From positions 1 through 42,174 of the IMG/VR virus record IMGVR_UViG_3300046642_000533: a DNA stretch of 42,174 nt; one strand, written 5' to 3'. The notes under the pieces were generated by a model that was given only the letters and a program-made list of their open reading frames with translations, was not told the origin of the DNA and ran no database searches. Positions 4,317 through 41,816 of the stretch are shown here, piece after piece; within the stretch, counting starts at the first letter, position 1, and every line of letters starts with the position of its first letter. The stretch comes from a virus. The position numbers and the translations under genes are program-made.

Positions 4317-4415
4317 GGTGACCTCCATTTTGATTACCCGTCATTGCGGGCGGGAGTTTCTACCAGGACATTCAACTACAGAAATAGCCGGGGCGCAACG
4401 CGACGAACGACGCTA

Positions 4416-19343: not shown

Positions 19344-19583
19344 GTGGACCATTTGGACTTCAGGGGCGCTTTAGCGGACCTGGGCTGGACAATTGTTGGC
19401 TCGGGGGCTCGGCTCGGAATATCCCCGCGTCACGCCCAGAGGTTGGCGTCGGGAAACATCCGCGTGACCCTTACCATCCAGCGGCTCCTGGAGGCCCACC
19501 TGGAGCTAAAAGCCCTGTACGAACAACGTAATAACTCATGGGCCTCCAAATGGAGGGAGGCTACCCCTCCGCCCCCGGCATGA
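19344..19583 (+). CDS. Helix-turn-helix regulator candidate (GTG start)
   Basis: A 79-aa protein starting GTG with TTGGAGG 7 nt upstream. Residues about 15-45 look like a Cro/XRE helix-turn-helix (GSGARLGISPRHAQRLASGN) followed by a helix LTIQRLLEAHLELKALYEQ. The C-terminus is proline-rich and overlaps the convergent 19926-19561 gene by 23 bp. Likely controls early promoters; target unknown. The structured RNA cluster lies in its leader. Confidence 0.6.
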   Translation: MDHLDFRGALADLGWTIVGSGARLGISPRHAQRLASGNIRVTLTIQRLLEAHLELKALYEQRNNSWASKWREATPPPPA

Positions 19584-19926
19584 AGCACCTGATCACGGTG
19601 CCCTGCGGGTACCCGGCCTCGACCGGCCACAGCACCGCATGGCCCACCCGGTTGCCGGCCTGCACCACGGCCTCGGGCGGCACGTCCATCCAGACGGCCT
19701 TGTAGAACACCTGGTAGCCCTTCTCGGTGAGCTTCCAATCCGGGTCGTCCACCGTCTGGCCGTCCGCAAACGAGCAGCACAGGCCCCCGCTCTTGGATTG
19801 GAGGGTGTTGAACCACTGGCGGATGGCCGGGGAGTTCTGCACCCACTGCCCGTTGTCGCGGGTAGGGAGAAGGTAGGGAGAAGGTAGGGAGAAGGGTAGG
19901 AGAAAGAATACAATGCCAATCCTCAT
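19561..19926 (-). CDS. Small exported protein, signal peptide encoded by 11-bp tandem repeats
   Basis: Start at MRIGIVFFLLPFSLPSPYLL (19926) in the GGGAGGGAAAAACCATGAG block; 121 aa. The hydrophobic signal is written by four 11-bp units (19861-19904). The mature part has WVQNSPAIRQWFNTLQSKSG, LCCSFADGQTVDDPDW, a WMDVP-x-EAVV segment and a terminal RCFMPGAEG; I recall similar secreted proteins from Rhizobiales phages and prophages, function unknown. Since 11 is not a multiple of 3, gain or loss of one unit would break the frame. Confidence 0.65.
   Translation of the reverse strand: MRIGIVFFLLPFSLPSPYLLPTRDNGQWVQNSPAIRQWFNTLQSKSGGLCCSFADGQTVDDPDWKLTEKGYQVFYKAVWMDVPPEAVVQAGNRVGHAVLWPVEAGYPQGTVIRCFMPGAEG
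19861..19904. repeat. 11-bp tandem repeat, 3 exact and 1 degenerate copy
   Basis: GGTAGGGAGAA at 19861, 19872 and 19883, then GGGTAGGAGAA at 19894. It lies in the signal-peptide codons of the exported 121-aa protein. Confidence 0.95.
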
Positions 19927-24224: not shown

Positions 24225-24588
24225 CCCGTTGCTGAGTAATCACACCCGCCGTCACCAAGGCCGCAATCAAGGTCTGAACCTGGGACATGGACAAGTCTAC
24301 GTGCCGCACCGCGTAGAGGACCCGGTGTAACTGAACATGGTTCTGGGCGAAGGTAAAAAAGGCGGTGTATTCCTGATCGGTAAGTCTGGTCAGGAGTGCA
24401 CTCGCCTCAAGTACCTGAGCGGGGACATCCACGTAGGCCGCCGCAGCCGTTGCCGCGGCTGTCTTTTGCTGTGCAGTGGCGGCCGGCTGGAAGAAGATGT
24501 GGCCATCCGCAGCCACCCCATCGATGTCGGGGCAGGCGGCGCGAATGGTGGCGTCAAAGGCACCTAGATTGGTGATGGTCATAGCCAT
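24163..24588 (-). CDS. Last gene of the tail-fibre block, fibre-associated hypothetical protein
   Basis: A 141-aa protein after the 446-aa fibre gene, overlapping it by 10 bp. Start M1 or M3. Ala/Thr-rich N-terminus (AATAQQKTAAATAAAAYVDV) followed by a helical part LTRLTDQEYTAFFTFAQNHV and a proline-rich C-terminus. It resembles short proteins that end tail-fibre operons, possibly an assembly chaperone. It converges on the annealing gene with a 62-bp overlap and no terminator between. Confidence 0.6.
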   Translation of the reverse strand: MAMTITNLGAFDATIRAACPDIDGVAADGHIFFQPAATAQQKTAAATAAAAYVDVPAQVLEASALLTRLTDQEYTAFFTFAQNHVQLHRVLYAVRHVDLSMSQVQTLIAALVTAGVITQQRATAVFVAPPSPSPSVQLAPP

Positions 24589-25919
24589 ATAGCCCCAAAT
24601 AGTTGATTGGCACTGGAGCGATCAAATGTATTGGCAAAACTGCCATCGCCTTGCTCTATGGCAAAGATTATCCTGAGTCCAGTCGAAGAAATAGAAAATG
24701 GAGTGTTCAGAGCAATGTTAGAAGCAGCCGCCCCTGAATTTGTAATTTCGGAATAAACATTAAACGCATTACTGGCAATCCCCACTCCAACGATCATGCC
24801 AGCGCCCGAGTTGGCAGTTGTAGTTCCATCGGCTAAATAGCTAAAATTAGCAGCCCGCTCGCTGTCCGATTGAATGTATGAAATCTGATTTCCGCCGCTT
24901 GCTCTGGCCTGCCTAGCAGTGGCAGTTGTATATGTATAGATGGCCCCATTGTCCTCAACGACGGTGTTAAACAACACCTTGTTGTAGTAGTTGCAGAGGC
25001 CGAAGGATGCCGCCGTTCCACCCGATGCTGCCCCCCCATAAATCCATTGAGATTCACCGTCAGTGGGCGACGTATAAACTGTTCCAACAAATGTGCCTTG
25101 GTTGGCTGGCACTGAGATAGTTGTTGTTGAGTTTATTCTCATTGTGGCGGTAGTTGCGTTGGTCAGCATACCTCCAAAAATAGAAAGTGCCGTTGCCCTA
25201 GAAGGGGGCGGGCTAGGGCCTGGCTGTGTCCACTGAACAGTGGCCAATATTGGAACACCGGAGTTTAAGGTAACAAACACGTCAAAAGCATTGTTGATGG
25301 GCCAGTTGGCGCTGCCCAACATATTTATGAGCAACCCGGTCTGATCTGATAGAGAACTACAAAAATTGTATTGTTGAAGTGTTGACCCATTCCATATGGG
25401 GACAAACTGGCTAGTGTAGGGAGCGTAATATATGGTCCCAGTGCCGGCTTGGTTTGCAGTCATAACCGGAGTGTTGGGTGTAAGTGTCAGGCGCCCACCG
25501 GGAGTGCCACCAAGCCCCACAGACCCGCCGCCAATGGCCGGTTGCTCCAGGAAAAACCCCGGAAACCCACCGGCCAAGGTGGCGCTGTAGATCAGGACGT
25601 ACTCCTGGCCATTGACCAGATCGCCTATGTTGGCCTGAGTGACGCCATCGGCGTGGTATACCGGCAGGAAGCCAATGCCGTTGAACTGCGCCGTCACCGC
25701 GCCGTTGGAACTCCCATTGGCCCGGAAGCGATAGCCACCCAACTCGGTGTACGACGTCAGGGCCGGGCAGTTGATCAGGGGGGTTAGAGACACAGCGTTG
25801 TTGCCCGAGGCCGAGCACGGTATTTGGATCATGGCGGCAGTCTGGTTGAACATGCCGTCGAATAGGGAAAGCGGCTGATCGCCGCCGAGCAACGTGCCGA
25901 AAATTACCGGCCATGTCAT
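24579..25919 (-). CDS. Tail fibre-like protein
   Basis: A 446-aa protein starting MTWPVIFGTLLGGDQPLSLF, rich in Gly, Ser, Thr, Ala and Asn and poor in Lys/Arg. The C-terminus is typical of LamG/concanavalin-like phage fibre domains (NAFNVYSEITNSGAAASNIA and RSSANQLFGAIWL). Unlike the five genes transcribed before it, it has no signal peptide. Its start block CATGAC-A-TGGCC is repeated at the start of the upstream HNH gene. Likely a host-binding fibre; inferred from composition and position. Confidence 0.65.
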   Translation of the reverse strand: MTWPVIFGTLLGGDQPLSLFDGMFNQTAAMIQIPCSASGNNAVSLTPLINCPALTSYTELGGYRFRANGSSNGAVTAQFNGIGFLPVYHADGVTQANIGDLVNGQEYVLIYSATLAGGFPGFFLEQPAIGGGSVGLGGTPGGRLTLTPNTPVMTANQAGTGTIYYAPYTSQFVPIWNGSTLQQYNFCSSLSDQTGLLINMLGSANWPINNAFDVFVTLNSGVPILATVQWTQPGPSPPPSRATALSIFGGMLTNATTATMRINSTTTISVPANQGTFVGTVYTSPTDGESQWIYGGAASGGTAASFGLCNYYNKVLFNTVVEDNGAIYTYTTATARQARASGGNQISYIQSDSERAANFSYLADGTTTANSGAGMIVGVGIASNAFNVYSEITNSGAAASNIALNTPFSISSTGLRIIFAIEQGDGSFANTFDRSSANQLFGAIWL

Positions 25920-26416
25920 GGGGCTGACCTCGCAAATTCACCAAATACCTTCAATGCCTCCAATTTGTAAGCCAGCACAGCATCATCTTTGCTGTTGAAC
26001 CGCCCTATTGTTTTTTTTGCTACTCTCACCCTCCACCTCTTGGTCCACGGATCGAACGATACGCCCTTATACCCAGAAGTGTTTCTTTTGCCAATATTCG
26101 TGTTTGCAACATTTTGGGAGCGAGTAGAGAGCCGCAAGTTCGACCACTTGTCGTTTTTAGGGTCTGTATCTTTGTGGTCTATTTCCACAGTTGGCCACTC
26201 TCCCATCATTAATGCCCAGGCGATTCTGCTCCTCAAAAAGTCTATGCCATCAATACAAATACAGACACGTCCGTCACTCTTTCGAGCGTGCCCAGCCAAG
26301 TCTCCAGACTTAAGCATCCCCCTGTCAGTGCGGCAAACAACAACCCCGGTAGTCGGATCGTAGCTGACCACCTCCCTTAACCGTTCTATTGAAATGCTAT
26401 TGGTGGGCCAAGTCAT
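25916..26416 (-). CDS. HNH-AP2 homing endonuclease in the tail-fibre operon
   Basis: A 166-aa protein with an N-terminal NUMOD-like part, the HNH core WPTVEIDHKDTDPKNDKWSN (D80, H81, N88, N93) and RLSTRSQNVAN, and a C-terminal AP2 DNA-binding domain (SGYKGVSFDPWTKRWRVRVA to KVFGEF, about 114-162). Both its start and stop overlap neighbours by ATGA. The 12-nt start block CATGAC-T-TGGCC is repeated with one change at the downstream gene start, so it may have copied the junction on insertion. AT-rich relative to the flanking genes. Confidence 0.9.
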   Translation of the reverse strand: MTWPTNSISIERLREVVSYDPTTGVVVCRTDRGMLKSGDLAGHARKSDGRVCICIDGIDFLRSRIAWALMMGEWPTVEIDHKDTDPKNDKWSNLRLSTRSQNVANTNIGKRNTSGYKGVSFDPWTKRWRVRVAKKTIGRFNSKDDAVLAYKLEALKVFGEFARSAP

Positions 26417-28653
26417 GTGAAGTGTCCGTTCGCCGGGTCGATCCAGGTCGGAAATGCCGCAGTGGTGGCTGTGCTATTGGGATCGAAACCTAGCGCCTGC
26501 CAAGAGGTAAAGGTTAGATTGGACCCGGAAATTCTGTTGAATTGAGAAGAGTTGGTGCCGCCCGAAGTGGCGTTAGGGCACAGGTAGTTGTTGCGATCCA
26601 CTATGGCCGTTGTGAACTGCGCAGATGGTCCCATATCCATAATATTGCAGGACGCTCCGGTGCGCGTGTCCTCGATCTGGTTGTCGGTGGACACGAGAGG
26701 CTTGGTTGCGGTTATCGTGTTGGTGGTCGGCAACATAACTATCGCGGCAGCTGTTGCTGATGACTGATAAATCTTGTTCCTGTAAACCTGGTATCTCATG
26801 CTACCAGTACATAAAGCGGCACCGCCGGTCCCCGACAGGGATGGGAGAAACCAGCCTGCGTCACTTCCCCAGACAAAGTGATCGCGGAAGGTGCCTCTAA
26901 GCAAACAATTCGGCGGGTATCCTCCTTGACCAAGGTTGGAGTGAGCGCACTTTTGCGAGACAACATCCACCCATTGGACTGCCGTGGCGTTGTTGAATCC
27001 GTCGCTGAAATCAGACGCGACCTCACACCCGCTGAAATAACAGGAGTCAATGCAAAAGTAGTGTACGAAGTGAACCGATACGCTACCTACATATATGGCA
27101 GTCCCTGTGGTAAGGGTTAGAGCACTAAGCTGGTAGGTTCCTATGCCTCCTGGAGTTCCCGTTAGCTGCATTGTTATGGTGACACCAGGAGGAACCGCTG
27201 TGTTGAAGTTAACACAATACAAAGTCATCCCCACTTGGATTGGCGGGGTCCCTCCAAACAAAGTGTTTACAGTAAAAACTCCTGTCGTTATACTACCATC
27301 TAGTATGATAGCACTAGTGTAGTTAGTGTAGTCTCCGTTTATGCAAGATTGTTTGGTTGGACCGCTTCCTGTGTTCGTGGTGGCGCCGAAGTTGATCCAC
27401 CGGCATAGGAAGTTGTCTCCGATGCCAGGGTAAATATGGTGGTCCCTGCTGTTGTCGCTGCCCGCTCCGACTATTGTACCACCCATGATGAAGAACCACT
27501 GGCTCCAGCCGAGGAAAGACATGCTCATGCGATTTCCGGCAAACGGGGCAAGAGGGCTGGTAACCGACATATTCCATGTGCCGGCCCGAACACAATTTGC
27601 TACCGCTGGATCATTTTGGGGGGACAGTGCGAATACGTCCTGCCCAGCTATGTTGAGCGTCGTGCTGACTGTGCAGTTGTCCCAGTAAAAATCATGGTAC
27701 ACGGCAGCAGGGTCAAAGTTGGCACCAATAAACCCCGCAGCATTGCCAAATGTGTTGGTACCACTGGTAACACATTGGATGTTTGAAACCACAATATCCG
27801 TCAGACTGTACCCACCTGACCCAGAACCTGGTCCTGTATTAAATCCAACCGCCGCGTTGTTGGCGGTACCGTCTTGATTTATAATAGGGTCAGCGCCGGT
27901 GCTGTAAGCGTCGAATCGAACTTGATCCAAGGAAGATGCGCCCGAAAACCCGAGCGTTTGACCGACGAAGTTTGAACCACGCTTGAGATGAATAGCAATA
28001 TTGCTGGGGGAAACTCCAGCAGGAGAAACCGCCGACCACGCAGTCTTTGCCGCATTGATGGTTTGGAATGGAGTCCCTGATGAAGTCCCGTTGTTAGAGT
28101 CGCTACCTCCGACTGAATCGCACCACCACTCGTGCGCAGCCGTGAAGGCGGTGGCAGTGAAGGTTGCCGTAGACGTAGCGGTAGTGAACCCAGCTCCGTT
28201 GGCACCGCGGATTGTCAGGGTAACGGTATAGGTGTCGGCTACACGGCAGACGAAGGCGGCGTCAGGGCCGGTCTGGTCAGTGTTCGCATTTACGCTCGGG
28301 CCGCCGGTCGTATAGGGATACACTGCCGGGTTGGTGAAATTCTCTGCGGCAACAGTGCCCCCGGCGCGACTGATGCTCCAGGAATATTCCAAGTCCTCAT
28401 ATGGCTGGGTCGTGCCGGTTGCCGTTATGGCAGACGCCGAGGCTTGGAAGAAAGCTGGCAGTTGGCCGCTCGTGCGCGACATGCTGATGCCGCCGGCAGT
28501 GTTTATGGCTGTGATCGTCACATTGGGGTTGCCACCAAACCCGGGGGGCGGCGGGACAAAGGCAGACCCGTGTGTCCACGCTAACGCTGGCGCCATCCTG
28601 TAAACGACAGCCAATGCTGTGGCAGCTAGAAGTTCTCGTCTGCTAATAAGCAT
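26413..28653 (-). CDS. Tail spike with beta-helix, twin-arginine-like N-terminus
   Basis: A 746-aa protein. Residues 1-26 look like a Tat signal (SRRELLAATALAVVYRMAPA then LAW). Residues about 45-170 resemble an Ig/PKD-like domain, then EWWCDSVGGSDSNNGTSSGT and PFQTINAAKTAW open a long right-handed beta-helix of the pectate-lyase-like, DUF1565 type. This is the architecture of spikes that bind or cleave surface polysaccharide. Catalytic residues cannot be named. A signal peptide on a virion protein is odd; see findings. The start overlaps the upstream gene by 11 bp. Confidence 0.75.
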   Translation of the reverse strand: MLISRRELLAATALAVVYRMAPALAWTHGSAFVPPPPGFGGNPNVTITAINTAGGISMSRTSGQLPAFFQASASAITATGTTQPYEDLEYSWSISRAGGTVAAENFTNPAVYPYTTGGPSVNANTDQTGPDAAFVCRVADTYTVTLTIRGANGAGFTTATSTATFTATAFTAAHEWWCDSVGGSDSNNGTSSGTPFQTINAAKTAWSAVSPAGVSPSNIAIHLKRGSNFVGQTLGFSGASSLDQVRFDAYSTGADPIINQDGTANNAAVGFNTGPGSGSGGYSLTDIVVSNIQCVTSGTNTFGNAAGFIGANFDPAAVYHDFYWDNCTVSTTLNIAGQDVFALSPQNDPAVANCVRAGTWNMSVTSPLAPFAGNRMSMSFLGWSQWFFIMGGTIVGAGSDNSRDHHIYPGIGDNFLCRWINFGATTNTGSGPTKQSCINGDYTNYTSAIILDGSITTGVFTVNTLFGGTPPIQVGMTLYCVNFNTAVPPGVTITMQLTGTPGGIGTYQLSALTLTTGTAIYVGSVSVHFVHYFCIDSCYFSGCEVASDFSDGFNNATAVQWVDVVSQKCAHSNLGQGGYPPNCLLRGTFRDHFVWGSDAGWFLPSLSGTGGAALCTGSMRYQVYRNKIYQSSATAAAIVMLPTTNTITATKPLVSTDNQIEDTRTGASCNIMDMGPSAQFTTAIVDRNNYLCPNATSGGTNSSQFNRISGSNLTFTSWQALGFDPNSTATTAAFPTWIDPANGHFT

Positions 28654-29575
28654 TGATGCCCAGAGCGGTAGCGAAGGTGTTTATTCGGTCGGCCACCTTC
28701 TTGGCATTTGCTGCCGACAGGCCGGTGCTCAGGAAAACAAAAGAAATCTGGTCTGTGGAAAAGTTTGATGCAGCACTGCCATTCCACAGAGCCGATATGG
28801 CAATATTGGTTGCCGGGGGCCCAGCATCAGCCGATGCTGCGTTCGTTGCAAACGGAGTCAGGCTGCTGTTGAGATAGAGGTCTACTTGCGTAGCAGTCGT
28901 TCTGGAGCCAATCCATTGACCTTTGGCTTGAGTGTTGGCCGCGCTGGTGAACGATCCGTCATTAACGCCGAAGTCAGCCGCCGAGGAATTTAGAGGCCGG
29001 ATATAGTCGAAGACGCCCGAATCTGTGGTGCCCAGGAGAAACATGCTGGCACTCATTGTTCTTGCAGACGTTATGTATCCGCCGATCGCAAAACTCGATA
29101 CCGTAACGCCCGCACTATTGGGGTTGAATTGGGTATCCAAATATCCGTCCGATCCATTTCCGACATATCCAACATTGGCGGTAAAGGTAATTGTGCCGTG
29201 GGATACGAGCGAGAAGCTGGTGCCGCAAAGGTTGAGCAAGGAGGTGGCTGAGTCGGGAGCGGCCAGGACGTAGACAGCATACATGGCCCCGCCTGTGACA
29301 CACCCGACGCTATCGGTTTCCAAGCCGCAAATCAGGTTGTCGTAGTTTGTCTTCTGCGGGTCAGTCAGACCAGAGGTGCGAGCTAGAAAGTCGGTCGAGG
29401 GAGTGCAGGAAGGGGTGAATGGCGAGGACCCGGAAACGCCGCACGGCTGGAAGACCAAGGAGTGCTGATTGACGGCACCACAGCCAAGCTGCCCGATCTG
29501 GGCGCGTGCTCCAGGCTGTTGGGCAAGCCACACTATCCCCAGCAGAAGAACCAGGGCTGAGAGAATACGATACAT
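28643..29575 (-). CDS. Signal-peptide-bearing LamG-like tail-region protein
   Basis: A 310-aa protein. MYRILSALVLLLGIVWLAQQ plus PGARAQ is a clear Sec signal. Then a Cys-rich segment (GCGAVNQHSLVFQPCG) and LTDPQKTNYDNLICGLETDS, a LamG/concanavalin-like beta domain (GSDGYLDTQFNPNSAGVTVS; SASMFLLGTTDSGVFDYIRP) and a helical end AKKVADRINTFATALGI. The mature domain order resembles fibre/appendage proteins of Rhizobiales phages. It may be a glycan-binding protein. Two bases separate it from the upstream gene. Confidence 0.7.
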   Translation of the reverse strand: MYRILSALVLLLGIVWLAQQPGARAQIGQLGCGAVNQHSLVFQPCGVSGSSPFTPSCTPSTDFLARTSGLTDPQKTNYDNLICGLETDSVGCVTGGAMYAVYVLAAPDSATSLLNLCGTSFSLVSHGTITFTANVGYVGNGSDGYLDTQFNPNSAGVTVSSFAIGGYITSARTMSASMFLLGTTDSGVFDYIRPLNSSAADFGVNDGSFTSAANTQAKGQWIGSRTTATQVDLYLNSSLTPFATNAASADAGPPATNIAISALWNGSAASNFSTDQISFVFLSTGLSAANAKKVADRINTFATALGINAY

Positions 29576-29576
29576 A

Positions 29577-30386
29577 TCAGTTCGCCTGTGAGTGGATGAA
29601 CTTGCCGGTTCCAGCCGCAGTAAGAACCGGGCAGTCTGTCGAGGAGATGGCTACCACTATTCCGGCCGAGAAGTGCTCCCAAGGCCCTGGATTGTAATTG
29701 ATGCTGGCACCCCAGTCCGTCACACCCTTCTGAAGTTCAAAACATCCCTGTAGATTGCCGGAGGCCGTCCCGACAGTCAGGGTGGCATTGCTGGGGAGGG
29801 ATGTGGCATTTATGATAAACACCCAACCTGCCGCCGAACTGGTCACATAGGCATTCTGGAGATTTCCGGCCGAAGCCTTGGCCACTACATTGGTTGCCGT
29901 TGTGCCGGCCACTACCGTTGTTCCGGCGCTGGTCGAGGTTGAATCCTGGATAATGCCAACACCGCCAATAGAGACAGTAGAGGCTTGAGTAGGAATTGCC
30001 GCCCCTGTATTTGTAGCAATGGAGGCCAGGGATGTGTTTGCTGTGGTTTGATTGGCCGCCGTAGCCGCCCCAGTGGGGAGGGTTATAGTTCCAGCAATAT
30101 TGTTGATGTTGTTAGTGGCCCCCGTGAGTTGGGTGGCAAAAGTTCCCGCGTTGGTGACAGCCCCAGCAACAGAAACGGCGCCACCGGCACTAACCGCTGC
30201 GCATTGGGTTGGGGTAGCTGGGTCGCACAAAAGTTGTTGCGCGTAGTTAACAGCACTCACAACGAGTGAGCCGAAGGTCGTTCCACTTCCCTGTGTTACG
30301 GTGTAATTGGTGGCAAGGGCCGCCACGGGCAGAGCCGCAATGAGGCAGACATAGGCTACCCTGAGAAGCCTGATAGGCCATTTCAT
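29577..30386 (-). CDS. Signal-peptide-bearing fibre-like protein
   Basis: Start at MKWPIRLLRVAYVCLIAALP (30386), overlapping the previous stop (TGATG); 269 aa. A Sec-type signal is followed by an Ala/Thr/Asn repeat region (GAATAANQTTANTSLASIAT), typical of phage fibre shafts, and a C-terminal beta domain with YVTSSAAGWVFIINATSLPS and GCFELQKGVTDWGASINYNP. Likely a minor fibre or appendage; inferred. Confidence 0.65.
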   Translation of the reverse strand: MKWPIRLLRVAYVCLIAALPVAALATNYTVTQGSGTTFGSLVVSAVNYAQQLLCDPATPTQCAAVSAGGAVSVAGAVTNAGTFATQLTGATNNINNIAGTITLPTGAATAANQTTANTSLASIATNTGAAIPTQASTVSIGGVGIIQDSTSTSAGTTVVAGTTATNVVAKASAGNLQNAYVTSSAAGWVFIINATSLPSNATLTVGTASGNLQGCFELQKGVTDWGASINYNPGPWEHFSAGIVVAISSTDCPVLTAAGTGKFIHSQAN

Positions 30387-30583
30387 CAGAAAACTCCTAG
30401 CATAGGTAGAGCACATCCGGCCGATAGATCGAGAGGCCCACTACATCCCGGGGGAGGTGGCGGTGGGGCCAAGGTGTTGTTGGTATTGGGCCCGATCTGG
30501 ATAAGCGAACCAGGACCTATGGGCGCCTGTGCCATGGCCTGGGCCACCAGGAAAGCCATCAGGATGAGGATGAACCACCTCAC
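30386..30583 (-). CDS. 65-aa exported proline-rich peptide
   Basis: Signal peptide MRWFILILMAFLVAQAMA then QAPIGPGSLIQIGPNTNN, a run of six prolines and GCSGPLDLSAGCALPML. It overlaps the upstream stop by 4 bp and the downstream start by one base. Two Cys could form a disulfide outside the cytoplasm. Function unknown. Confidence 0.55.
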   Translation of the reverse strand: MRWFILILMAFLVAQAMAQAPIGPGSLIQIGPNTNNTLAPPPPPPGCSGPLDLSAGCALPMLGVF

Positions 30584-30909
30584 TGGAAGTACTCCACGTC
30601 CACGGTGGCACCGCTACCGATGACTTGGAGGGCAATAAGGGCGTCCCGGCCAGCGATCTGAAAACAGGCCCCCGAGGCTACCGCCATACCGACTGTGGAG
30701 CTTGGAGTTGTGCCCGATGTCGTGTAGCGGATGGCCGCAGTGTCTACGCAGATTTCAGCGATCCTGGCCTGGGTGGGGACGGTCAGGGTCTGGACAGAGG
30801 TTACGGCCAATCCATACTGGGGCGTCCCGGTCGGCTTGTACTGATAGACGGCCTGTGCCCACGCTGGCAATGACACGCAAACCACCGCTGCCGCCAGGAT
30901 CGCTCTCAT
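30580..30909 (-). CDS. 109-aa exported beta protein of the tail region
   Basis: Signal peptide MRAILAAAVVCVSLPAWAQA, then a beta-rich domain with IAEICVDTAAIRYTTSGTTP and GACFQIAGRDALIALQVIGS, ending VDVEYFQ. The pattern is like small phage tail-region proteins of about 100 aa that bind at fibre or capsid surfaces, but with a signal. RBS AGGAGATATT precedes the ATG. Confidence 0.6.
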   Translation of the reverse strand: MRAILAAAVVCVSLPAWAQAVYQYKPTGTPQYGLAVTSVQTLTVPTQARIAEICVDTAAIRYTTSGTTPSSTVGMAVASGACFQIAGRDALIALQVIGSGATVDVEYFQ

Positions 30910-30947
30910 TTAATATCTCCTGCCTCGCCAGCCTCGCCTCCTAGCTA

Positions 30948-31373
30948 TTAGTAGTATTCCAACACTGTGATGTTGGGAGTGGCCGAGGCCGAGGACCCGT
31001 TCCAGGCGGAACCGAGATTGCCAATGACGTTGCCGAGGCCCGAGCCGGGGACGGTGAAGCAGGAGGTGACGCCCGAGGCGATGGCGGGGAGGCCAATACC
31101 CACCGCAGAGGTGGAGAGAACGATGGTGCCGGCGGGGGCCACAAACTCGACCACCGCAGTCGGGTTGCAGAACACGAGGCCCTTGCGGGTGGGGTTCTGG
31201 CCAACGATCTGCACTGGGGTGCCGCCGTTCAGAGCAACGGTGGTGCCTGCGGGGCCAAGCTGAGTACCCTGAGCCTTCACCATGGTTGGTCCTTGGTTAA
31301 CAGCAAGGATAATCAAGCCTGCAACGACCCCGAAGGCAGTCGCAGCTATTACGTTCTCAAGAGCACGATGCAT
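30948..31373 (-). CDS. 141-aa protein with N-terminal signal anchor and beta domain
   Basis: Residues 8-27 are hydrophobic (VIAATAFGVVAGLIILAVNQ), possibly a signal anchor or cleaved at VKAQG. The mature domain has PVQIVGQNPTRKGLVFCNPT, then VEFVAPAGTIVLSTSAVGIG and CFTVPGSG. The QxxGxNPxRKGLxFxNP pattern occurs in small phage tail or head proteins that I recall. Start overlaps nothing; the next gene begins after a short GCC-rich gap with four GCC-N(1-2) units at 30922-30939. Confidence 0.65.
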   Translation of the reverse strand: MHRALENVIAATAFGVVAGLIILAVNQGPTMVKAQGTQLGPAGTTVALNGGTPVQIVGQNPTRKGLVFCNPTAVVEFVAPAGTIVLSTSAVGIGLPAIASGVTSCFTVPGSGLGNVIGNLGSAWNGSSASATPNITVLEYY

Positions 31374-31374: not shown

Positions 31375-31761
31375 TCAGCCTCCGTTGCCGGTTATACCGG
31401 CTCGCCAGTATAGGGCAACGATTGGACCTAGAACCGTCACCGAGAATAGGGCCGCCGCGATGGTCCGCACCTGAGTTGGGTCCCACACCGCAAAACTCCA
31501 TATGCCGCAGGCGGCCACAACGGCTATCAGACCCAGCAGCCGAGCCGATAGCACATCGAGGGCCGCAATTAGGACGGCAGGATACTCTTTTTTGATTTGG
31601 GCGATAGGCGACGAACGAACTTGGGGCTCCGGGACAGGAATTGGCTCTGGCCTGGGAGGCGGAGGCGGCATGGCCACCACGTTCTCGACAGGCTTGGGAC
31701 CATCATACAAATCCGCCTGCTCCACGCCCTCGGGTAGTTCATTTGGCAAAGAAAGCGCCAC
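31375..31761 (-). CDS. 128-aa two-span membrane protein (GTG start)
   Basis: GTG start at 31761 with AGGAGGAG 4 nt upstream. A proline-rich cytoplasmic N-terminus (residues 31-47) is followed by two membrane helices at about 73-92 and 98-118 (LLGLIAVVAACGIWSFAVWD; IAAALFSVTVLGPIVALYWR). Its place between internal virion proteins and fibre genes is also that of holins in some podoviruses, so it is a third holin candidate. Confidence 0.6.
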   Translation of the reverse strand: MALSLPNELPEGVEQADLYDGPKPVENVVAMPPPPPRPEPIPVPEPQVRSSPIAQIKKEYPAVLIAALDVLSARLLGLIAVVAACGIWSFAVWDPTQVRTIAAALFSVTVLGPIVALYWRAGITGNGG

Positions 31762-31924
31762 TAGCTCCTCCTATTCCTTCGTCTATCTTGTGGCGGATCG
31801 CCAGTATCTTGGCCCCCACCTCGATTGCTTTCAGCCGCTCCGAGTTGGACAACTCCTTGCCACGGAGCGCCCTTCTCACCTCAATCTCCAGCACGTCGAT
31901 CAGACTCTTCTGCCTTGCCGTCAT
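31739..31924 (-). CDS. 61-aa hypothetical protein
   Basis: Charged helical protein MTARQKSLIDVLEIEVRRAL ending GIGGASGAFFAK; ATG overlaps the upstream stop (ATGA) and the end overlaps the GTG-start membrane gene by 23 bp. No family recognised. Confidence 0.6.
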   Translation of the reverse strand: MTARQKSLIDVLEIEVRRALRGKELSNSERLKAIEVGAKILAIRHKIDEGIGGASGAFFAK

Positions 31925-33390
31925 GGCTGAGCCGCGTTGAGGGTGTCGTAGCCTTCCCCCTGATGATCGAGGGCCTGCTGACCACCAACTGCCCCACTTC
32001 GCAGGGTCTGGTCCCGCAGCGACTTCTTGGCGTCCACCCTAGTGGCTGCGTTCTTCGCGGCCTGCTGCTGGTTAATTGTGGCTCTCTCCTGAACCTTAGC
32101 TATCAGATTTTTGATTTGCTGATCTGTTAGGTGTTTACCCAGCTCGCGGAAGGCGGTCTTGGCCGTCGCCAATCCAACTGCCACTGGAAAACTCGCCATG
32201 CCTAGCAGAGGCAACAGGGCATGGGGGACGGCCTTGTCCACAAACCGGGAGCCCCGGGACATAAATGTTCCCTTGACAACATCCTCTAGGGCCTGCTGTT
32301 CCCCGGGTTGCAGCCTGCTCAGCCTCTTGTCGTTCTTGAGTATCCTGTTTAGCCCCTGCAATTCGGCGTTCTGGGTATTTCCGCCCCACCCGGTAACACC
32401 GGCTTGATTTTTGCCCTGCTCAGTTACCTTTTGAAGTTCTTCTACTTGGGACTTGACGTTCCAATCGTTGATGGCGTCCTTTAGGGTATTATTTATTTGT
32501 GGGTCGCGCTGTTTCATAAAATCCACGACTTCAGAGCGAGCTAGTTGACCGGCTATCCGCTCGTCGGCCGGGACGGTTCCCAACTTAGCATGAAGATTCA
32601 TCAAATCCTTGTACCGGGCCGGTTGAGTTCTATCCTTCAAATATCTCTCCATGTACTTATACGTCATGGGAGAATTTATGTCGTCACGAGAATTGGTGTC
32701 CAACCATGTGTCTAATGTAGAATGGAGTGCGTCTGTTTCATGAGTAGGGATAAGGGTTGGGTCGTTCTCGATGACCTTATAGCCTTGTTTAGCACTGGCC
32801 TCGATGTCGGGAGCTTTGGCGAGAGCCTTTCGCCCTGCCGCCTCTCTCATGGCCTTGGAACCCGCTCCAGTTCCAGCCCCGCCGGCAACGCCGCCCGCCA
32901 CGGACGCCAAAGTTTGCCCCCATTCCGGGGCGCCCAATTCCTCGGCAATCTTGCGGCCGTAATGTGAACCGGCACCGCCCATAGCCGCGCCGCCGATCTT
33001 GAGCGCAGCACTACCAGCGCCGAGAAGGTTCAATGGATTAGCCACTGCTTCACCCACGTCACCGGCCAATGTGTCCCCCTGCGGCTCAAGGCCTAGCGCC
33101 TTGTTCATCCTATCGGCGTAGTGCGGGGTGAATTTTGGGTTCTCTGGTATTTGGAGTCCTTCGCGGAGGCCCTTGCCGGTGATGGCCTCGCCCAGAGAGC
33201 CGAGTGTTCCAGTCACGCCCCTGGCCAGCCCCTTGCCAAGCTCCTTGATGCCACTTGGCTCTCCCGGCGCATCGCCCTTGGCTTGGTACTGCTTCTGGGC
33301 CATGGCAATGGCCTGCTCCTGGGTGGCGCCCTCGGGGCCAATCACCTCCAGTTTCGTGCCGTCCGGTGCCGTGACTTCAAACTTGGGCAT
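31921..33390 (-). CDS. Internal virion (ejection) protein candidate
   Basis: Start at MPKFEVTAPDGTKLEVIGPE (33390), overlapping the upstream stop as TAATG; 489 aa. The N-terminal module with VTAPDG-x(3)-EV and GATQEQAIAMAQKQY is one I recall at the start of podovirus ejection proteins. A glycine/alanine-rich, mildly hydrophobic stretch lies at about 110-180 (AGGVAGGAGTGAGSKAMREA) and a second near 390-420, the rest is helical. Such proteins are packed in the head and enter the cell envelope with DNA. Assignment is inference. Confidence 0.6.
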   Translation of the reverse strand: MPKFEVTAPDGTKLEVIGPEGATQEQAIAMAQKQYQAKGDAPGEPSGIKELGKGLARGVTGTLGSLGEAITGKGLREGLQIPENPKFTPHYADRMNKALGLEPQGDTLAGDVGEAVANPLNLLGAGSAALKIGGAAMGGAGSHYGRKIAEELGAPEWGQTLASVAGGVAGGAGTGAGSKAMREAAGRKALAKAPDIEASAKQGYKVIENDPTLIPTHETDALHSTLDTWLDTNSRDDINSPMTYKYMERYLKDRTQPARYKDLMNLHAKLGTVPADERIAGQLARSEVVDFMKQRDPQINNTLKDAINDWNVKSQVEELQKVTEQGKNQAGVTGWGGNTQNAELQGLNRILKNDKRLSRLQPGEQQALEDVVKGTFMSRGSRFVDKAVPHALLPLLGMASFPVAVGLATAKTAFRELGKHLTDQQIKNLIAKVQERATINQQQAAKNAATRVDAKKSLRDQTLRSGAVGGQQALDHQGEGYDTLNAAQP

Positions 33391-34970
33391 TACTGTATGG
33401 GCCTCACCGTCCATCCACCCTGATCAGGTTGTGGAGCCTGTTTTCCAGCGGCTGGGGCCACTTGGACCGGCTCGAATTTTCCCGTCCTGACTTCCTCCTT
33501 AGCGTCCAAAACCGCCTGCCGAGCAGCATTGATGTCTAGAGCGATTGCCTCAAAGGCACCCTGCCGTGCAGATTGCGGCATGTTAGGGTTCAGCGTCTCA
33601 TGCGCCTTGGCTCGTGTCGCATCCGTTGCCTGCCCACCTCTTGCTAGAACAGAACCATAGGAAGTCATCATGGCATTCATCACGTCTACCATCTTGGTGT
33701 AATTCTGATCGCCTTTGATTACCTGCCATTTATTGTCAGCCGCACTCCATATAGAATTTCCCTTGCCAGGACTGGCTGCCGATAGAGCCTGCAACTGAGG
33801 CAACATTCTTGCTACCTCGTCGGCTGCTACGGCAATTTGGCCGCCACGTCGAGCAATAGTTGAAGCCTCCACCTTGCGGGCGTCGTAAGCCACGGCGTTA
33901 GACATTATGTCTTCATTGCTTAAGCCGTTCCTTTGCATGGCGCGCTGCACGGCAGCGTTCCAGTTTGTTGATGCTGAAGCGCCACCCCTTCCTATGGCTT
34001 GTGCTCTAGCACTCTTGTCGCCCTTGACAAATCGGTCAGCGGCATCGTCGTAATTGGCCATCTCCTGTTCGTGCTGGGCTTTAATTCGCCCATCAAGTAG
34101 TTCCATATCCTTCATCATCTTTGCGGACTTTTCCAAGCGCTCCTCGTGGTGGTCACGCTCCGTCTGCTGAAACTCGGCCAGTTTGGTGAAGTCGTGCATC
34201 TTGGCGGTGTTGTACGTGATCTGGTCGTCGTACTTGGTGGCAACCAGCTTCATCATCTCCATCTTCTGGGCGATGTTGGTCTGCTGGTCCTTCCAGACGG
34301 CATTGTACTCGTCCAGCTTCGCCTGATTTACATCGTTGACGTTCTGCTCTGCTTCCTTCCATTCTTGGTGCATCTGGTTGAAGGACTCTACGTTGCCCTC
34401 ATGGAGTCCCTTCATCATGCCCGAGAATGCCGTCAGCGCAGTGGTGGTGCCTTTGCGTGAAAAGCCGCCGGCCAACGCCCCCATCAGGGCGGCCACCTGC
34501 ATATAGGCCATGCTGCTTGCCGAGAAGTCGGCCTTGGGAGGAGGCTTGTTTCGCTCCAAGACTGGAGGCTTGTTCTTCCGCATGTCCTCCATGGTGGACT
34601 GGAGGTCCTTGATGCGCCCCCCCATGTCCGCCTGTTTCTGCTTTTGCAGAACATCGTTGGCGGCGGTCGCCCCTTCAACGGCCTTGCGAACATCGTCAGA
34701 GGTGTAGTCGCCGCCGCCAGGTATGGCACCAGCCCCCATATCCTTGGGCGCTTCTTTGCCGGTTGCAAGTCTGTGGAGGGGCTGGAACCCTTGCGCGGGA
34801 GGCGCCTGTTGGGGGTTAAAGGAGGTAGGAGCTAAGCGGTCGTCATCCTTCAACTCCATTGCCGTCGATTGGAATGACGCTGGAGCAAAGTGTGCATCAT
34901 CCTTCAACGCTGTAGCAAAGTATGCATCATCCTTGAGTTCGTCGGCAAAGGGCTGGCGATCATCGGTCAT
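33390..34970 (-). CDS. Internal virion protein candidate with N-terminal LKDD repeats
   Basis: A 526-aa, largely helical protein. The N-terminus repeats ELKDDAYFA, ALKDDAHFAP and ELKDDDRLAP (residues 11-48), possibly binding signals. The middle (about 100-330) is charged and coiled coil (MHQEWKEAEQNVNDVNQAKL), with a short Gly/Ala membrane-like patch near 150-175 (AYMQVAALMGALAGGFSRKG). It lies between two other probable ejection proteins. No peptidase or lysozyme motif was seen. Confidence 0.6.
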   Translation of the reverse strand: MTDDRQPFADELKDDAYFATALKDDAHFAPASFQSTAMELKDDDRLAPTSFNPQQAPPAQGFQPLHRLATGKEAPKDMGAGAIPGGGDYTSDDVRKAVEGATAANDVLQKQKQADMGGRIKDLQSTMEDMRKNKPPVLERNKPPPKADFSASSMAYMQVAALMGALAGGFSRKGTTTALTAFSGMMKGLHEGNVESFNQMHQEWKEAEQNVNDVNQAKLDEYNAVWKDQQTNIAQKMEMMKLVATKYDDQITYNTAKMHDFTKLAEFQQTERDHHEERLEKSAKMMKDMELLDGRIKAQHEQEMANYDDAADRFVKGDKSARAQAIGRGGASASTNWNAAVQRAMQRNGLSNEDIMSNAVAYDARKVEASTIARRGGQIAVAADEVARMLPQLQALSAASPGKGNSIWSAADNKWQVIKGDQNYTKMVDVMNAMMTSYGSVLARGGQATDATRAKAHETLNPNMPQSARQGAFEAIALDINAARQAVLDAKEEVRTGKFEPVQVAPAAGKQAPQPDQGGWTVRPIQ

Positions 34971-34971
34971 G

Positions 34972-36414
34972 TTACGTTACCGCATTTTGAACGGCAGAAG
35001 GCTTGGCGGCGCTGTTGGTGCTGACCGCCGCCAATAGGCCAAAGGACTTCAATGCATCGCCAACGGCCTGGTTATATTGCTGATCGCCCTGAGCCTGTAG
35101 TTGGGCGGCCTGCAAGAGGGCGTTATTGGCGCCCGAGTTGATGTTGGCGGCTGTCCCGAGGCCGGCGTTTGCTGCCGTAGCGGATTGGAAGGCCGTATTG
35201 ATAAGCTGGGTGATCATAGCCGTCTGTTGAGCTAGGGCATCCTGCTTGATCTGGGCAACGTCGCCCAGGAACCGGCTGTCGCTGTTGGGATCGGTAACGC
35301 CGTGGCTGGCGTAGAACTGGTATCGCTGGTTGGTCTGGTCTTGAACGTACTTAGCCAACGTGGCCGCCTGGGCTGGACTGATCTGGTTATTGGTGGCGTT
35401 GGTCAAGTCGGTGGCCGCCGTTTGGTTGAATAGCGGGACGTTCTGAGTGGCCTGCGGGGACAACTGAGCGGCTTGGGCTTGGGCGTTGTTGACGGCTTGC
35501 TGGGCCTGCGGCGGAATGCCCGGAGCCCCCTTGTACAAAGTAGAACCAAGGAAGCCCAATGGGAGCGCCAGTTCCGCCGCCTTGGTCCACGGGGAGTTCA
35601 GGGCGTTCCCCAGCCCCGCCGTCAGGCCGGAGGAGGCTGGGGCGGCTGCGGCGGCGGCCTGGGGCGCCACTCCGGGATCCGCAGACAGCGACGGAGCCTC
35701 GATTCCACCTGTCGGGTCGGCAACGGAGCCGGCGCTCGCATACGTATCGGTCGGGAGGGAGTTGGCTTGAGAAATCAAGGACCGCAGGCTTTGATCGCTG
35801 ACGGCCGTTTCCGCCGGCTGCACACCGAGGGCCGCGTCGATGTTGGTATTCGTGCCAGCTAGTTCAGTGGCCGGGTCCGTGAAAGCCGCCGTTGCCGATG
35901 GCACAGATGGTGTAGTCCCCGCCGCCAAGGATGTGGCTGCGCTGGTGGCGGGCGTGGCACCGGTTGAGATGTCAGGAGCTAAAGCCAGAGCATTGGTGGC
36001 GTCGCCACCTACCTCAGTACCCAGGCTCCCGCCTAGTCCAGGCGCCTCGCTGAGAGCGGCAATGTCGGCAGCACCAAGACCGGCTCCACTGGTACCCACA
36101 TCGATTGCTCCCGCGCCTAGAGCCCCAACATCAGCGGCGCCCGCCCCCAATGCCCCAATGTCTGCTCCGAGGCTAGGCGCTTCGCTCAAGGCCGCCACAT
36201 CGGCAGCACTGAGGCCAGCATCGGCTGCGCCAAGTCCAACGTCAGCCGCGCCGGCACCCAGATCGGCCAGCCCCAATCCCGCCCCAATCTCTGGGGCCAG
36301 GAAGGGCAGGGCCACGGCAGCACCAATGCCGGCCGCTTCAAGGCCGGATCGCAACGGATGGGCCTCGATCCCGCTGATCTGACGGTTGATCCAGTCCTCT
36401 AGCGAAAAGCCCAT
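34972..36414 (-). CDS. Alanine/glycine-rich internal virion protein candidate
   Basis: A 480-aa protein. The N-terminus has a hydrophobic segment (IGAAVALPFLAPEIGAGLGL, about 29-48) followed by repeats based on ADIAALSEAP-x-LG and GAGAADVGALGAG (50-130). The C-terminal 180 residues are Gln/Ala-rich helices (NNAQAQAAQLSPQATQNVPL) with RYQFYASHGVTDPNSDSRFL. Such Ala/Gln-rich proteins are typical of podovirus internal or needle-adjacent proteins. Function inferred from position. Confidence 0.6.
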   Translation of the reverse strand: MGFSLEDWINRQISGIEAHPLRSGLEAAGIGAAVALPFLAPEIGAGLGLADLGAGAADVGLGAADAGLSAADVAALSEAPSLGADIGALGAGAADVGALGAGAIDVGTSGAGLGAADIAALSEAPGLGGSLGTEVGGDATNALALAPDISTGATPATSAATSLAAGTTPSVPSATAAFTDPATELAGTNTNIDAALGVQPAETAVSDQSLRSLISQANSLPTDTYASAGSVADPTGGIEAPSLSADPGVAPQAAAAAAPASSGLTAGLGNALNSPWTKAAELALPLGFLGSTLYKGAPGIPPQAQQAVNNAQAQAAQLSPQATQNVPLFNQTAATDLTNATNNQISPAQAATLAKYVQDQTNQRYQFYASHGVTDPNSDSRFLGDVAQIKQDALAQQTAMITQLINTAFQSATAANAGLGTAANINSGANNALLQAAQLQAQGDQQYNQAVGDALKSFGLLAAVSTNSAAKPSAVQNAVT

Positions 36415-36423
36415 GGCGGCACC

Positions 36424-38790
36424 TTATGCGTTGTTCAATGCTTCAAACGCTGCGGTATTGTCTATAGGAGCCGCCCCTCCTGGTCTAGCGCGAGGGGCAA
36501 AGAGGCCCAGTTCCGGGTTGAAGTTGCCCAGTGGCGATCCTTCGTCCCCGAGAGTGATGGTGGGAAAGAACGGGTTATTCGCGGGGGATGATCCATCGGC
36601 AGGAGATGTCCCGTCCGCCGGGCTTGTCCCGTCCGCCGGGGTATTTCCTGGTATCGGCTCGATAAGCTGGGACGCCAGCAGGTTGCCGCCTCCACCATTA
36701 CCGCCACCTGCACCACCACCTTCTCCAGCGTTGGATGGCGAGTTTCCGGCTCCAGCAGGGTTCCCGACCCCTGGAGAGTCCAACGCAGCGGACACATCCG
36801 GGTTGGTGCTAGGGGCAATGTCGGGTCCAACTGGAGTTGTAATGTCTGGCGGTGTACCAGGACTAGGACCTGGATCCGGTGCTGGCGCGGCAGGACTAGG
36901 ACCTGGATCCGGTGCTGATGCGGGTGGGGCCGCCGCATCAATCGAGTTGAACCCTCCGCTGGCTATATTGACGTTGGGGGCGGGAGCGGGGGAGGGGACT
37001 CCTCCCGTGGCACTGGCAAATTGGTTCTGTGGATCGACGGGATCGGCAATGCTGCCAGTAAACTGAGACTGAGCACCGACTGCATTGGGGTTGAAAAGCA
37101 CATCAGCGGTCTGGCCAGGGTCTATACCGGGGGTCAGAGAGTCTGATTTGGAAATTCCGAACGATGGCAGGTTATTTCCGGCGTCCAAAGAGGGGGCTCC
37201 GGCATTCTGAACAGGAGTGCCCCAAGTCGTTTGATTGTTGGTGGCCCATGAAGGTAAGCCGCTGGCGTCTTGAATAGGTGCCGGTTGATCCCCAACACCA
37301 GGTTGGCCGTAGGTATTAAAGGCAGTTGGGCTACTGTCTGGAAACATCCCCGCTTGAAGTTGCTGGTTGAACGATGATGTCGTCGTAGGCGGGATTGTTA
37401 CATCGTTGAAGCCCTCGGTTGTCATAAAACTAGGTTCTTGAGCGCCTACGGGAGCGGGAGGACTGGTTGGCTGTCCATCTACTTCAATCCCAAGGATGTC
37501 TGTCCCAGGGCCAAAAGCATTCCCCGCAAACTGCGGCCCCATGTTGGACGGAATCCCTCCCAAACCCAGCCCTTGCTGCGCCGCCTGAGCCTCGGCAATG
37601 GTTGGACCGGATGTTCCCATGGCGTTTGCCATATTGGGCGGGGGGCCTTGATCGATTCCGCCGGGAGCCGGAGCGGGCTGATCCGGGGTCGGCGCATCGC
37701 TGGGCAGCGGGCTGGTGTCTTGGGCGGCCTGCGCCCTCGCCATACCCTGCTGGGCTGCAAGAATTGCCTGATCCCCGGTCTGGGCTGGGACCGGGTTCTG
37801 GTCGCCGGCCACATTCTGCTGTTCGGGACTGGAGGGGGCGGCGTTGGCCGTTCCAAGGGCCTGAGCAATAGGGCTGTCACCCTGGCCGGAAAGAAGACCT
37901 GATAGAGACGAAAACCCGCCGCCGAGTCCTAGAGCCGAAGCGGCGGCAGCGGGGCTGGCGGACGCCACCTGGCCCAAGCCAGAAGGTTGGCTTCCAAGAC
38001 CAGCCAAGCCTCCCATGGGAGATGCTGCCGCTGCTGCTGTTGGCGCTGGGGCTGAGTCCAGCGCTGCCCCCATGGCATCGTTGATGGCCCCGGGAGAAGT
38101 GCCCCCTAGGGAAGGACTCTGATTGTCCGCAGCTTGGCTTGCTGCGCTCTGAGTGGGATCGGTTTGGGTTGTGCCCTGAGTTCCACGGTCACCGCTTGGA
38201 GGTGCCCCCGGGGGAGTACCTTCATTTTCGGCCGCACCGGGGGTCTGGTTTCCACCAGTCGGGTCGGGAGCTGGAGCATTAGAGCCGGGAGAGCTATCAG
38301 AAATTGGACCAGTATCCCGAGCACTGCCCGGGTCCTGAGTTACCTGGCCCGACTCTGAGCCTGTGCTCGCCCCGAGTCCTGGCCCAGAATCAGCCGGACC
38401 ACCACCGCCCTCGGCAGTTGTTCCTTGCGTCCCGCCAGTCGCATCGGACGCTGGCCCTCCTGGGCCAGCATCTGCGGGGCCGGTACCCTGCCCATCAGAG
38501 CGGTCATTGCCGGGGGACTGATTGCCGCCGGTTGGGTCTGAGTTGCTATCGTCGGGCGCGTTGCTATCGTCGGGCGCATTGCTGTCGTCGGCATTGCTGT
38601 CGTCGGCATTGCTGTCATCGTCTCCGGCGGTGTTGTCGTCAGTACTGCCGTCATCATCGTCTCCCCCGCCGTCATCATCGCCGCCGCCATCGTCGTCGCC
38701 ACCGCCATCATCATCGCCGCTCGCAAACAGCCAGGACGGCTGCCAGCCCCACTCGAACTCGTCAAAATAGTCTTTGGTCAGTCTGCGCAT
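36424..38790 (-). CDS. 788-aa largely disordered acidic virion protein
   Basis: Starts MRRLTKDYFDEFEWGWQPSW, then (DDDGGG)3 and SNADD/SNAPDD repeats (residues about 25-85). Most of the rest is Pro, Gly, Ser, Ala, Asn and Asp with short repeats such as PDPGPSPAAP and PADGTSPADG; almost no stable fold is expected. Only the N-terminal 22 and C-terminal about 60 residues look ordered. The conserved ends and place before the internal proteins suggest a virion tether or an injected protein. Acidic runs could bind cations or a basic partner. Family unknown. Confidence 0.6.
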   Translation of the reverse strand: MRRLTKDYFDEFEWGWQPSWLFASGDDDGGGDDDGGGDDDGGGDDDDGSTDDNTAGDDDSNADDSNADDSNAPDDSNAPDDSNSDPTGGNQSPGNDRSDGQGTGPADAGPGGPASDATGGTQGTTAEGGGGPADSGPGLGASTGSESGQVTQDPGSARDTGPISDSSPGSNAPAPDPTGGNQTPGAAENEGTPPGAPPSGDRGTQGTTQTDPTQSAASQAADNQSPSLGGTSPGAINDAMGAALDSAPAPTAAAAASPMGGLAGLGSQPSGLGQVASASPAAAASALGLGGGFSSLSGLLSGQGDSPIAQALGTANAAPSSPEQQNVAGDQNPVPAQTGDQAILAAQQGMARAQAAQDTSPLPSDAPTPDQPAPAPGGIDQGPPPNMANAMGTSGPTIAEAQAAQQGLGLGGIPSNMGPQFAGNAFGPGTDILGIEVDGQPTSPPAPVGAQEPSFMTTEGFNDVTIPPTTTSSFNQQLQAGMFPDSSPTAFNTYGQPGVGDQPAPIQDASGLPSWATNNQTTWGTPVQNAGAPSLDAGNNLPSFGISKSDSLTPGIDPGQTADVLFNPNAVGAQSQFTGSIADPVDPQNQFASATGGVPSPAPAPNVNIASGGFNSIDAAAPPASAPDPGPSPAAPAPDPGPSPGTPPDITTPVGPDIAPSTNPDVSAALDSPGVGNPAGAGNSPSNAGEGGGAGGGNGGGGNLLASQLIEPIPGNTPADGTSPADGTSPADGSSPANNPFFPTITLGDEGSPLGNFNPELGLFAPRARPGGAAPIDNTAAFEALNNA

Positions 38791-38800: not shown

Positions 38801-39151
38801 TCAAGTTATCCCGAGGGCACTTCGGATGAGCGAGTGCTCGTCAGCATGGGTGTCCATCCAATCGGACCACTGGTCGCTCTTTGTCAAGTCCACATCGGCC
38901 AGGTTTATGCCGCCAACCCCACTGAATGTGCGTAGCTGCTGGTGGGTAGCCTCGTGGGACTCAAGCCAGGCCGATATGACCTTTTGATCAGGGTCCCAGA
39001 GGGCAAAATTGTAGTCGGAAATAAAGACAACTGGTGTCTGAGACTGGAATATGCGGACGAACTGAGCGTGCTCCAGGTAGTGCTCCTGAAGCCAGATGGA
39101 GAACCCGGTGGCATCGTGGGGGAGGCAAATATCGTGAAAAAATATACTCAC
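38801..39151 (-). CDS. 116-aa hypothetical virion-module protein
   Basis: Start overlaps the stopper gene stop as ATGA. His/Trp/Asp-rich helical protein: two repeats of the form LExHEATHQQLR and HADEHSLIRSALGI, with FSGVGGINLADVDLTKSDQW between. I recall homologues at the same spot in other podoviruses with unknown role. The many His could bind metal. Confidence 0.65.
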   Translation of the reverse strand: MSIFFHDICLPHDATGFSIWLQEHYLEHAQFVRIFQSQTPVVFISDYNFALWDPDQKVISAWLESHEATHQQLRTFSGVGGINLADVDLTKSDQWSDWMDTHADEHSLIRSALGIT

Positions 39152-40929: not shown

Positions 40930-41816
40930 TACCAGCCCCTCTGCATTCGGCGCCACATAGTCTGGTAGGCGTTCTGCATGCGTCGCGTCTGACGGGTGCG
41001 CTGTATCTGCTGGTACCTTTCTTCATATTTCTTATTGAAGTAGTCGGCCTGACCAAAGTTCTGCAACTTGATCAGGGCTAGGTGGGCCGCGTAAAACTGC
41101 ACACAATCGGCCATTGGCATGATTATTTGAAGATCGCTGTCGGTCGGCAACACTAGCAACCCCGGCAACACCACGGCGTCAATCTCCAAGGTATAAGTCT
41201 GGTCGGGTACCGGGTATAGATAGAAGGTGTTAGCCTCGGTGTAGTTGGACCAAACTGCCGGCTGGCCGCTTCGTAGCGTCGTGTTGGAACGCATGAACGC
41301 CTGAAATGTGCTGAATACCTCCCATTTCATCATGGAACGCTGGGTGCCGAAAATGCTGGTGATCGAGAGGAAGTCCATCACGCGGACGAGAGGAACTGCC
41401 GTCGCTGCGGCAGCGCCAGCCGAGAAAGTGACTGCGGGGGTTGTGGTGTAGCCGGACCCCCAGTTGGTCATGGCGATGGTCGATACCACCATGGTGGGGG
41501 CCGTTCCGGTCATAACAGCCGTTCCGGTGGCCGTTACTCCTCCGCCCCCCGGGGGGTCGAAGGTAATCGTAGGCGTGCTGCTGTAGGTCCCACCGTTGGT
41601 GACTATGGCGCCACCCACCCCGCCGGACATGGGGTAAGTTTCCTGGTTGGCAATCGAGGACAGGTTGGTGAAGAAAGAACGCACGCAATGGAAGTCTAGG
41701 GCAACCCTGGTGCGTGCGTTGTTAATGAATGTCGTTAGCTCTGTAGTTGTAAAATCAATAGCAGAGCTATCGTGGATAAGCTCCTGGACTTGCGAAATGT
41801 AATCGGAGAGGAGCAT
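40929..41816 (-). CDS. P22 gp4-like head-tail adaptor with inserted beta module
   Basis: A 295-aa protein whose outer parts match the adaptor family (about 200 aa in relatives): MLLSDYISQVQELIHDSSAI, DFTTTELTTFINNARTRVAL and NLSSIANQETYP at the N-terminus; VRVMDFLSITSIFGTQRSMM, the TFYLYPVPDQTYTLEIDAVV strand and a basic helical C-terminus RYQQIQRTRQTRRMQNAYQT. Residues 66-141 are an extra Gly/Thr-rich module (GGTYSSTPTITFDPPGGGG; WGSGYTTTPAVTFSAGAAAA) inserted between QETYP and the next strand. It binds the portal to complete the neck. Confidence 0.75.
   Translation of the reverse strand: MLLSDYISQVQELIHDSSAIDFTTTELTTFINNARTRVALDFHCVRSFFTNLSSIANQETYPMSGGVGGAIVTNGGTYSSTPTITFDPPGGGGVTATGTAVMTGTAPTMVVSTIAMTNWGSGYTTTPAVTFSAGAAAATAVPLVRVMDFLSITSIFGTQRSMMKWEVFSTFQAFMRSNTTLRSGQPAVWSNYTEANTFYLYPVPDQTYTLEIDAVVLPGLLVLPTDSDLQIIMPMADCVQFYAAHLALIKLQNFGQADYFNKKYEERYQQIQRTRQTRRMQNAYQTMWRRMQRGW

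Follow-up and report, generated by a model that had tools for sequence, protein, structure and literature searches.

The usual teaching is that tailed phages assemble in the cytoplasm, and to our knowledge the fibres and spikes of classical podoviruses fold there and lack a signal peptide. What role, then, could six consecutive genes with apparent export signals have in the tail region of a podovirus-like phage? The window analysed here is the complete IMG/VR virus record in which these genes lie, 42,174 bases in length. The region is present, identical or near-identical, in several other metagenome assemblies and is thus not an assembly artefact.

Gene order around the six genes

The terminase, the portal gene and the major capsid gene mark the phage as dsDNA and podovirus-like, and its structural genes lie on the minus strand in podovirus order. 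The six genes, P1 to P6, fill a slot bordered by the internal-virion genes on one side and by P7 on the other. This is the tail region of the structural cluster, where tailed phages have their fibre and spike genes. In the list below, an arrow marks the predicted cleavage site.

7670-9502, minus strand: terminase, structural cluster
4416-6143, minus strand: portal, from gene order against the annotated portals of relatives
1723-2730, minus strand: major capsid, structural cluster
40929-41816 and 39148-40956, minus strand: tail-tube-like genes, structural cluster
31921..38790, minus strand: four internal-virion-like genes (31921, 33390, 34972, 36424), so labelled by position; upstream border of the slot
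31375..31761, minus strand: small conserved membrane protein, C-terminal hydrophobic segments, without signal peptide
30948..31373, minus strand: P1, 141 aa, N-terminal hydrophobic helix, conserved A↓Q site (VKA↓QG; MHRALENVIAATAFGVVAGLIILAVNQGPTMVKA↓QG), small beta-sandwich, conserved Cys pair
30580..30909, minus strand: P2, 109 aa, signal AWA↓QA (MRAILAAAVVCVSLPAWA↓QA) and small domain, 2 Cys
30386..30583, minus strand: P3, 65 aa, signal AMA↓QA (MRWFILILMAFLVAQAMA↓QA) and short proline-rich protein, 2 Cys
29577..30386, minus strand: P4, 269 aa, signal ALA↓TN (MKWPIRLLRVAYVCLIAALPVAALA↓TN), 4 Cys
28643..29575, minus strand: P5, 310 aa, signal ARA↓QI (MYRILSALVLLLGIVWLAQQPGARA↓QI), 6 Cys
26413..28653, minus strand: P6, 746 aa, spike-sized, RR-containing signal SRRELLAATAL...ALA↓WT (MLISRRELLAATALAVVYRMAPALA↓WT), 16 Cys
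24579..25919, minus strand: P7, 446 aa, tail-spike-like, without signal, kept downstream of the slot across relatives

After the internal-virion-like genes come a 61-aa gene, the small membrane protein, P1 to P6, an HNH-like gene and P7. Homologs of the small membrane protein lie directly upstream of P1 in several relatives, and a match to the tail spike of Pseudanabaena phage Pam5 covers 46% of the length of P7. The four internal-virion-like proteins have neither a cysteine nor a signal; the 788-aa one (36424-38790, minus strand) carries a strongly acidic Asp/Gly repeat close to the N-terminus. Between P6 and P7, a 166-aa ORF (25916-26416, minus strand) resembles by eye an HNH homing-type endonuclease, and its GC content of 0.483 is below that of its neighbours. 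Elsewhere in the window, the product of 13213-14214 (minus strand) matches DUF6817 and, weakly, 2OG-Fe(II) oxygenases, and is kept in many relatives, while that of 11071-12213 (minus strand) has a weak CHAP-domain match after an N-terminal hydrophobic segment and is possibly a membrane-anchored endolysin.

Predicted export signals

The six minus-strand ORFs were confirmed, with starts at 31373, 30909, 30583 (GTG), 30386, 29575 and 28653. The initial annotation had read signals on all six consecutive genes from 31373 to 26413 and proposed signal prediction on each protein. All six are positive on our own rule-based scorer, which is not SignalP, at a cut-off of 3.0, with scores for P1 to P6 of 3.1, 5.1, 5.4, 5.2, 4.3 and 3.6. 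The positive controls, seven secretory signals, lie between 3.2 and 5.1, and the TorA Tat signal lies at 1.7; on this predictive scale the signals of P1 to P6 are on a par with those of secreted E. coli proteins. The cut-off is reached by just two further called genes of the window, a 73-aa membrane protein (9767-9988) and an ORF at 19561-19926; the same holds for 8 of the 208 spurious ORFs and for 38 of the 620 genes in relatives, slot genes included. Given so low a background, six consecutive signal genes are far beyond chance.

The signals of P2 to P5 are canonical for Sec and signal peptidase I, having a positive N-region, a hydrophobic core and an AXA site. P1 departs furthest from the canonical pattern, having a long spacer between core and cleavage site. 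The P6 signal had been described as Tat-like. Its SRRELLAATAL segment corresponds to NRRKMLAATSL in its one distinct homolog (G001/G015, MLNRRKMLAATSL...AFA↓W), so that the RR pair is kept and the S/T-R-R-x-F-L-K consensus otherwise partial; Tat routing is possible, and Sec equally so. P2/P3, P3/P4, P4/P5 and P5/P6 overlap, suggesting that they form a single unit with translational coupling, and P1 begins immediately at the stop codon before it. Export of the slot proteins is, from these sequence features, very probable.

Folds and families of P1 to P6

No match to a characterised fibre or virion family was obtained for any of the six. No Pfam match above the cut-off and no superinfection-exclusion or Lom-like PHROG was obtained for them, and such a function may still exist; nor was a lysis domain found in any of them. 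A DNA pattern search for a fibre motif returned nothing. The P1 model is a small beta-sandwich (pLDDT 78) with the hydrophobic helix at residues 2-26; its fold finds no PDB match better than E 0.0098, and many of the matches are cupins and uninformative. Signal-bearing counterparts of P2 (E 2e-16), P3 (a 322-aa protein, E 2e-5) and, weakly, P4 (E 0.001) occur in the relative G007. The C-terminal domain of P5 matches the unannotated phrog_26223 and proteins of Sinorhizobium, Rhizobium and Microcystis phages. P6 had been taken for a beta-helix protein, a reading that finds no footing here: it has no Pfam match above the cut-off, no PHROG match and no PDB sequence match, and its model, built from a two-sequence alignment, reaches a pLDDT of 29.8.

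The slot in related phages

The major capsid protein served to gather relatives and picked up 37 loci in viral contigs, with identities of 73-100% where the match was full-length. Also read were loci from cellular bins and further virus genomes, these in their entirety or for the most part. The group is described as soil phages. Slot content varies among them. Large slot proteins with signals occur in G007, G013, G011, G017, G001/G015 and L112, most of them not homologous to P1-P6, while in L117 and L122 the slot is wholly or partly filled by signal-less proteins. Two Manatee Spring relatives, at about 54% capsid identity, have no comparable exported module. Export would thus be dispensable for an infectious particle in the wider group. 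The initial description of a whole fibre module with signals stands as to the clustering, which recurs in relatives, and fails as to the whole, as P7 and the internal-virion genes are signal-less.

Relatives also encode signal-bearing proteins outside the slot (L075:3165-3878, L065:4378-5073, L153:14245-14904, L073:13133-13837 and L069:3763-4398), including an outer-membrane beta-barrel (Pfam OMP_b-brl) and one sub-threshold PEP-CTERM match. The distant relative L105, whose contig was binned with Gammaproteobacteria, has two proteins with signals (288 and 272 aa; 3888-5569) between portal and major capsid, a location different from the fibre slot. A 146-aa family (MSNRLGTPQS...) that scores as signal-bearing in some relatives was left out, its N-terminus being unlike a signal peptide.

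For the alphaproteobacterial host that had been assumed, the relatives give a weak hint: the outer-membrane barrel protein of one of them has one weak plasmid match, in Rhizobium. An Acidobacteriaceae host was set aside; among the cellular genomes of the collection, the sole close match lies in such a bin, on a contig the size of a phage, and misbinning is likely.

The P1 family

A profile search with the P1 domain retrieves exported and signal-less members, the latter standing alone or forming the N-terminal domain of a fibre. Residues N60, R63, N70 and E139 are kept in all aligned sequences of both groups. A CN...C pair and an A/G↓Q cleavage site are found in all ten exported members, the distance of the site from the hydrophobic core varying among them, while the Cys pair occurs in none of the 15 signal-less ones. 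In the P1 tree all exported members fall on one side of a single branch (support 88/93), from which it follows that signal and Cys pair changed together once and were then kept across deep divergence. As read from this tree, the association is one evolutionary event, not ten independent ones, and Fisher values for it do not count as independent evidence.

Cysteine parity

A fully disulfide-paired protein has an even number of cysteines, and the mature parts of P1 to P6 hold 2, 2, 2, 4, 6 and 16. Across slot proteins, hand-picked by position and signal and partly related to one another, the number is even in 26 of 28 mature signal-bearing proteins (1.88% Cys), against 6 of 18 signal-less ones (0.96% Cys), or 2 of 14 after removal of ORFs at contig edges, whose true starts may be missing (L111 700 aa and L113 794 aa; as a precaution also L112 152 aa and the G007 110-aa ORF). 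With one vote per family, 15 of 16 signal-bearing families are even (p = 3e-4). Six signal-bearing proteins checked after the test are all even: the P1 of G023 (2), the L156 270-aa protein (6), the L107 fibre (2), the two of L105 (4 and 2) and the L148 295-aa protein (2). The P6 homolog has an odd count (13), with only five cysteines conserved between the two P6 proteins.

Links to fibres and virions

Several slot proteins of relatives carry fibre or virion domains. The exported 521-aa protein of G017 matches phrog_4492, tail fiber (5e-15), a domain that G001 has without a signal, behind a P1-like domain (8e-17). The signal-bearing 322-aa protein of G007 matches phrog_10356, virion structural protein (4e-13), and a slot protein of G013 matches phrog_863, tail fibre assembly (6e-5). 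In G007, G013, G016 and G022 an exported fibre gene overlaps a signal-less P1-like gene by 4 nt, and these fibres share a VTVIGxVTxGxC-type sequence, or one close to it, behind the signal. The more distant relative L107 has a signal on the gene following its tail-tube-like gene; the C-terminal region of this fibre is common to seven genes of cultured phages, none of which has a signal. Its N-terminal segment was rejected as proof of docking, with tailspike and minor-tail matches at E 0.07-0.3 only.

Possible roles of the signal-bearing proteins

The preferred reading, which falls just short of an even call, is that P1 to P6 serve in receptor binding or as decoration and are exported, processed and disulfide-bonded before joining virions at lysis. 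The signals, the cleavage sites, the cysteine parity, the late-cluster position and the fibre-like domains of relatives support it at the level of sequence. Translocation, disulfide formation, attachment to the virion and timing at lysis we infer as follows. P1 to P5 would cross the inner membrane by Sec, and P6 by Tat or Sec; signal peptidase would trim all six, and disulfides would form in the periplasm. The proteins, encoded as receptor-binding or decoration proteins in the late structural cluster, would wait there until lysis and then attach to phage particles, through contact with components of cytoplasmic origin such as the tail or P1-like adaptors that lack a signal. Joining at that stage is plausible, since the tailspikes of P22 can be added in vitro to heads that are already complete. 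More tentatively, the attachment apparatus may be split, with adaptors, spike, internal proteins and capsid made in the cytoplasm and fibre or decoration proteins secreted, oxidised in the periplasm and added during lysis.

The main rival accepts export and places the proteins outside the virion. They would act late on the envelope and, by means of domains that bind receptors or degrade sugars, mask or strip the receptor of the host, which would prevent superinfection and keep progeny from being lost on debris. Such a role is possible, and less probable than the preferred one. It shares the well-supported export, it has a precedent in lambda Lom, exported and encoded among tail genes (PMC12309495), and it agrees with the off-slot exported proteins of some relatives, one of them an outer-membrane beta-barrel. 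However, a masking protein would hardly call for a run of exported genes within the virion cluster, for tail-fibre and virion-structural domains, or for the coupling of an exported fibre to a P1-like gene seen in four genomes.

The other two explanations dispense with release from the membrane or with export itself. Uncleaved tethers that keep the fibre proteins on the inner membrane until a late assembly step would suit the long hydrophobic helix in the P1 model and the long linker before its A↓Q site; the constancy of A/G↓Q in ten P1 homologs despite a varying distance from the core, the ordinary cleavage sites of P2 to P6 and the cysteine parity make them improbable. The initial annotation had left export and tethering side by side; export with cleavage fits better, on account of the conserved site and the even cysteine numbers. 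Signals that are compositional and non-functional, with assembly in the cytoplasm as for ordinary fibres, are more improbable still. The lack of a signal on P7 and the signal-less fibres in the same slot of relatives would agree with them, but the scores resemble those of real Sec signals, the signals recur on largely non-homologous genes, and both the even-Cys pattern and the confinement of the Cys pair to signal-bearing P1 proteins speak against them.

Comparison with known systems

That phage proteins can carry signal peptides is well known. Filamentous phage coat proteins are made with them and assembled at the inner membrane; the likeness lies in signal peptides on structural proteins, whereas the present phage is dsDNA and podovirus-like, with core virion genes that lack signals. 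Secreted and SAR endolysins and spanins are likewise late phage proteins sent through Sec, but no lysis domain was found in P1 to P6, the CHAP-type endolysin candidate lying elsewhere. Lambda Lom is an outer-membrane barrel expressed during lysogeny. Its N-terminus carries a signal and its gene lies between the tail-spike and the tail-fibre region (PMC12309495); Lom is thus akin to P1 to P6 in signal peptide and in location among tail genes, while P1 to P6 are six consecutive, soluble-looking, cysteine-rich proteins in a structural cluster. With P22- and T7-like fibre and spike genes the module shares its place in the late structural cluster after internal-virion genes, the tail-fibre PHROG domains (in relatives) and a neighbour, P7, that matches the Pam5 tail spike; it differs in the predicted signals on P1 to P6. 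In the open-access literature searched, incomplete in coverage, we found no description of a tailed-phage fibre module with signal peptides.

The presence of P1 to P6 in virions, if true, would be categorically new. Exported, disulfide-bonded fibres would add an envelope stage to tailed-phage assembly and could explain extra fibre stability in soil, and a signal peptide together with an even cysteine number in the fibre slot would be a genomic mark of such phages. If the proteins instead mask receptors, a secreted multi-gene receptor-binding set within a structural cluster would be a new kind of masking module.
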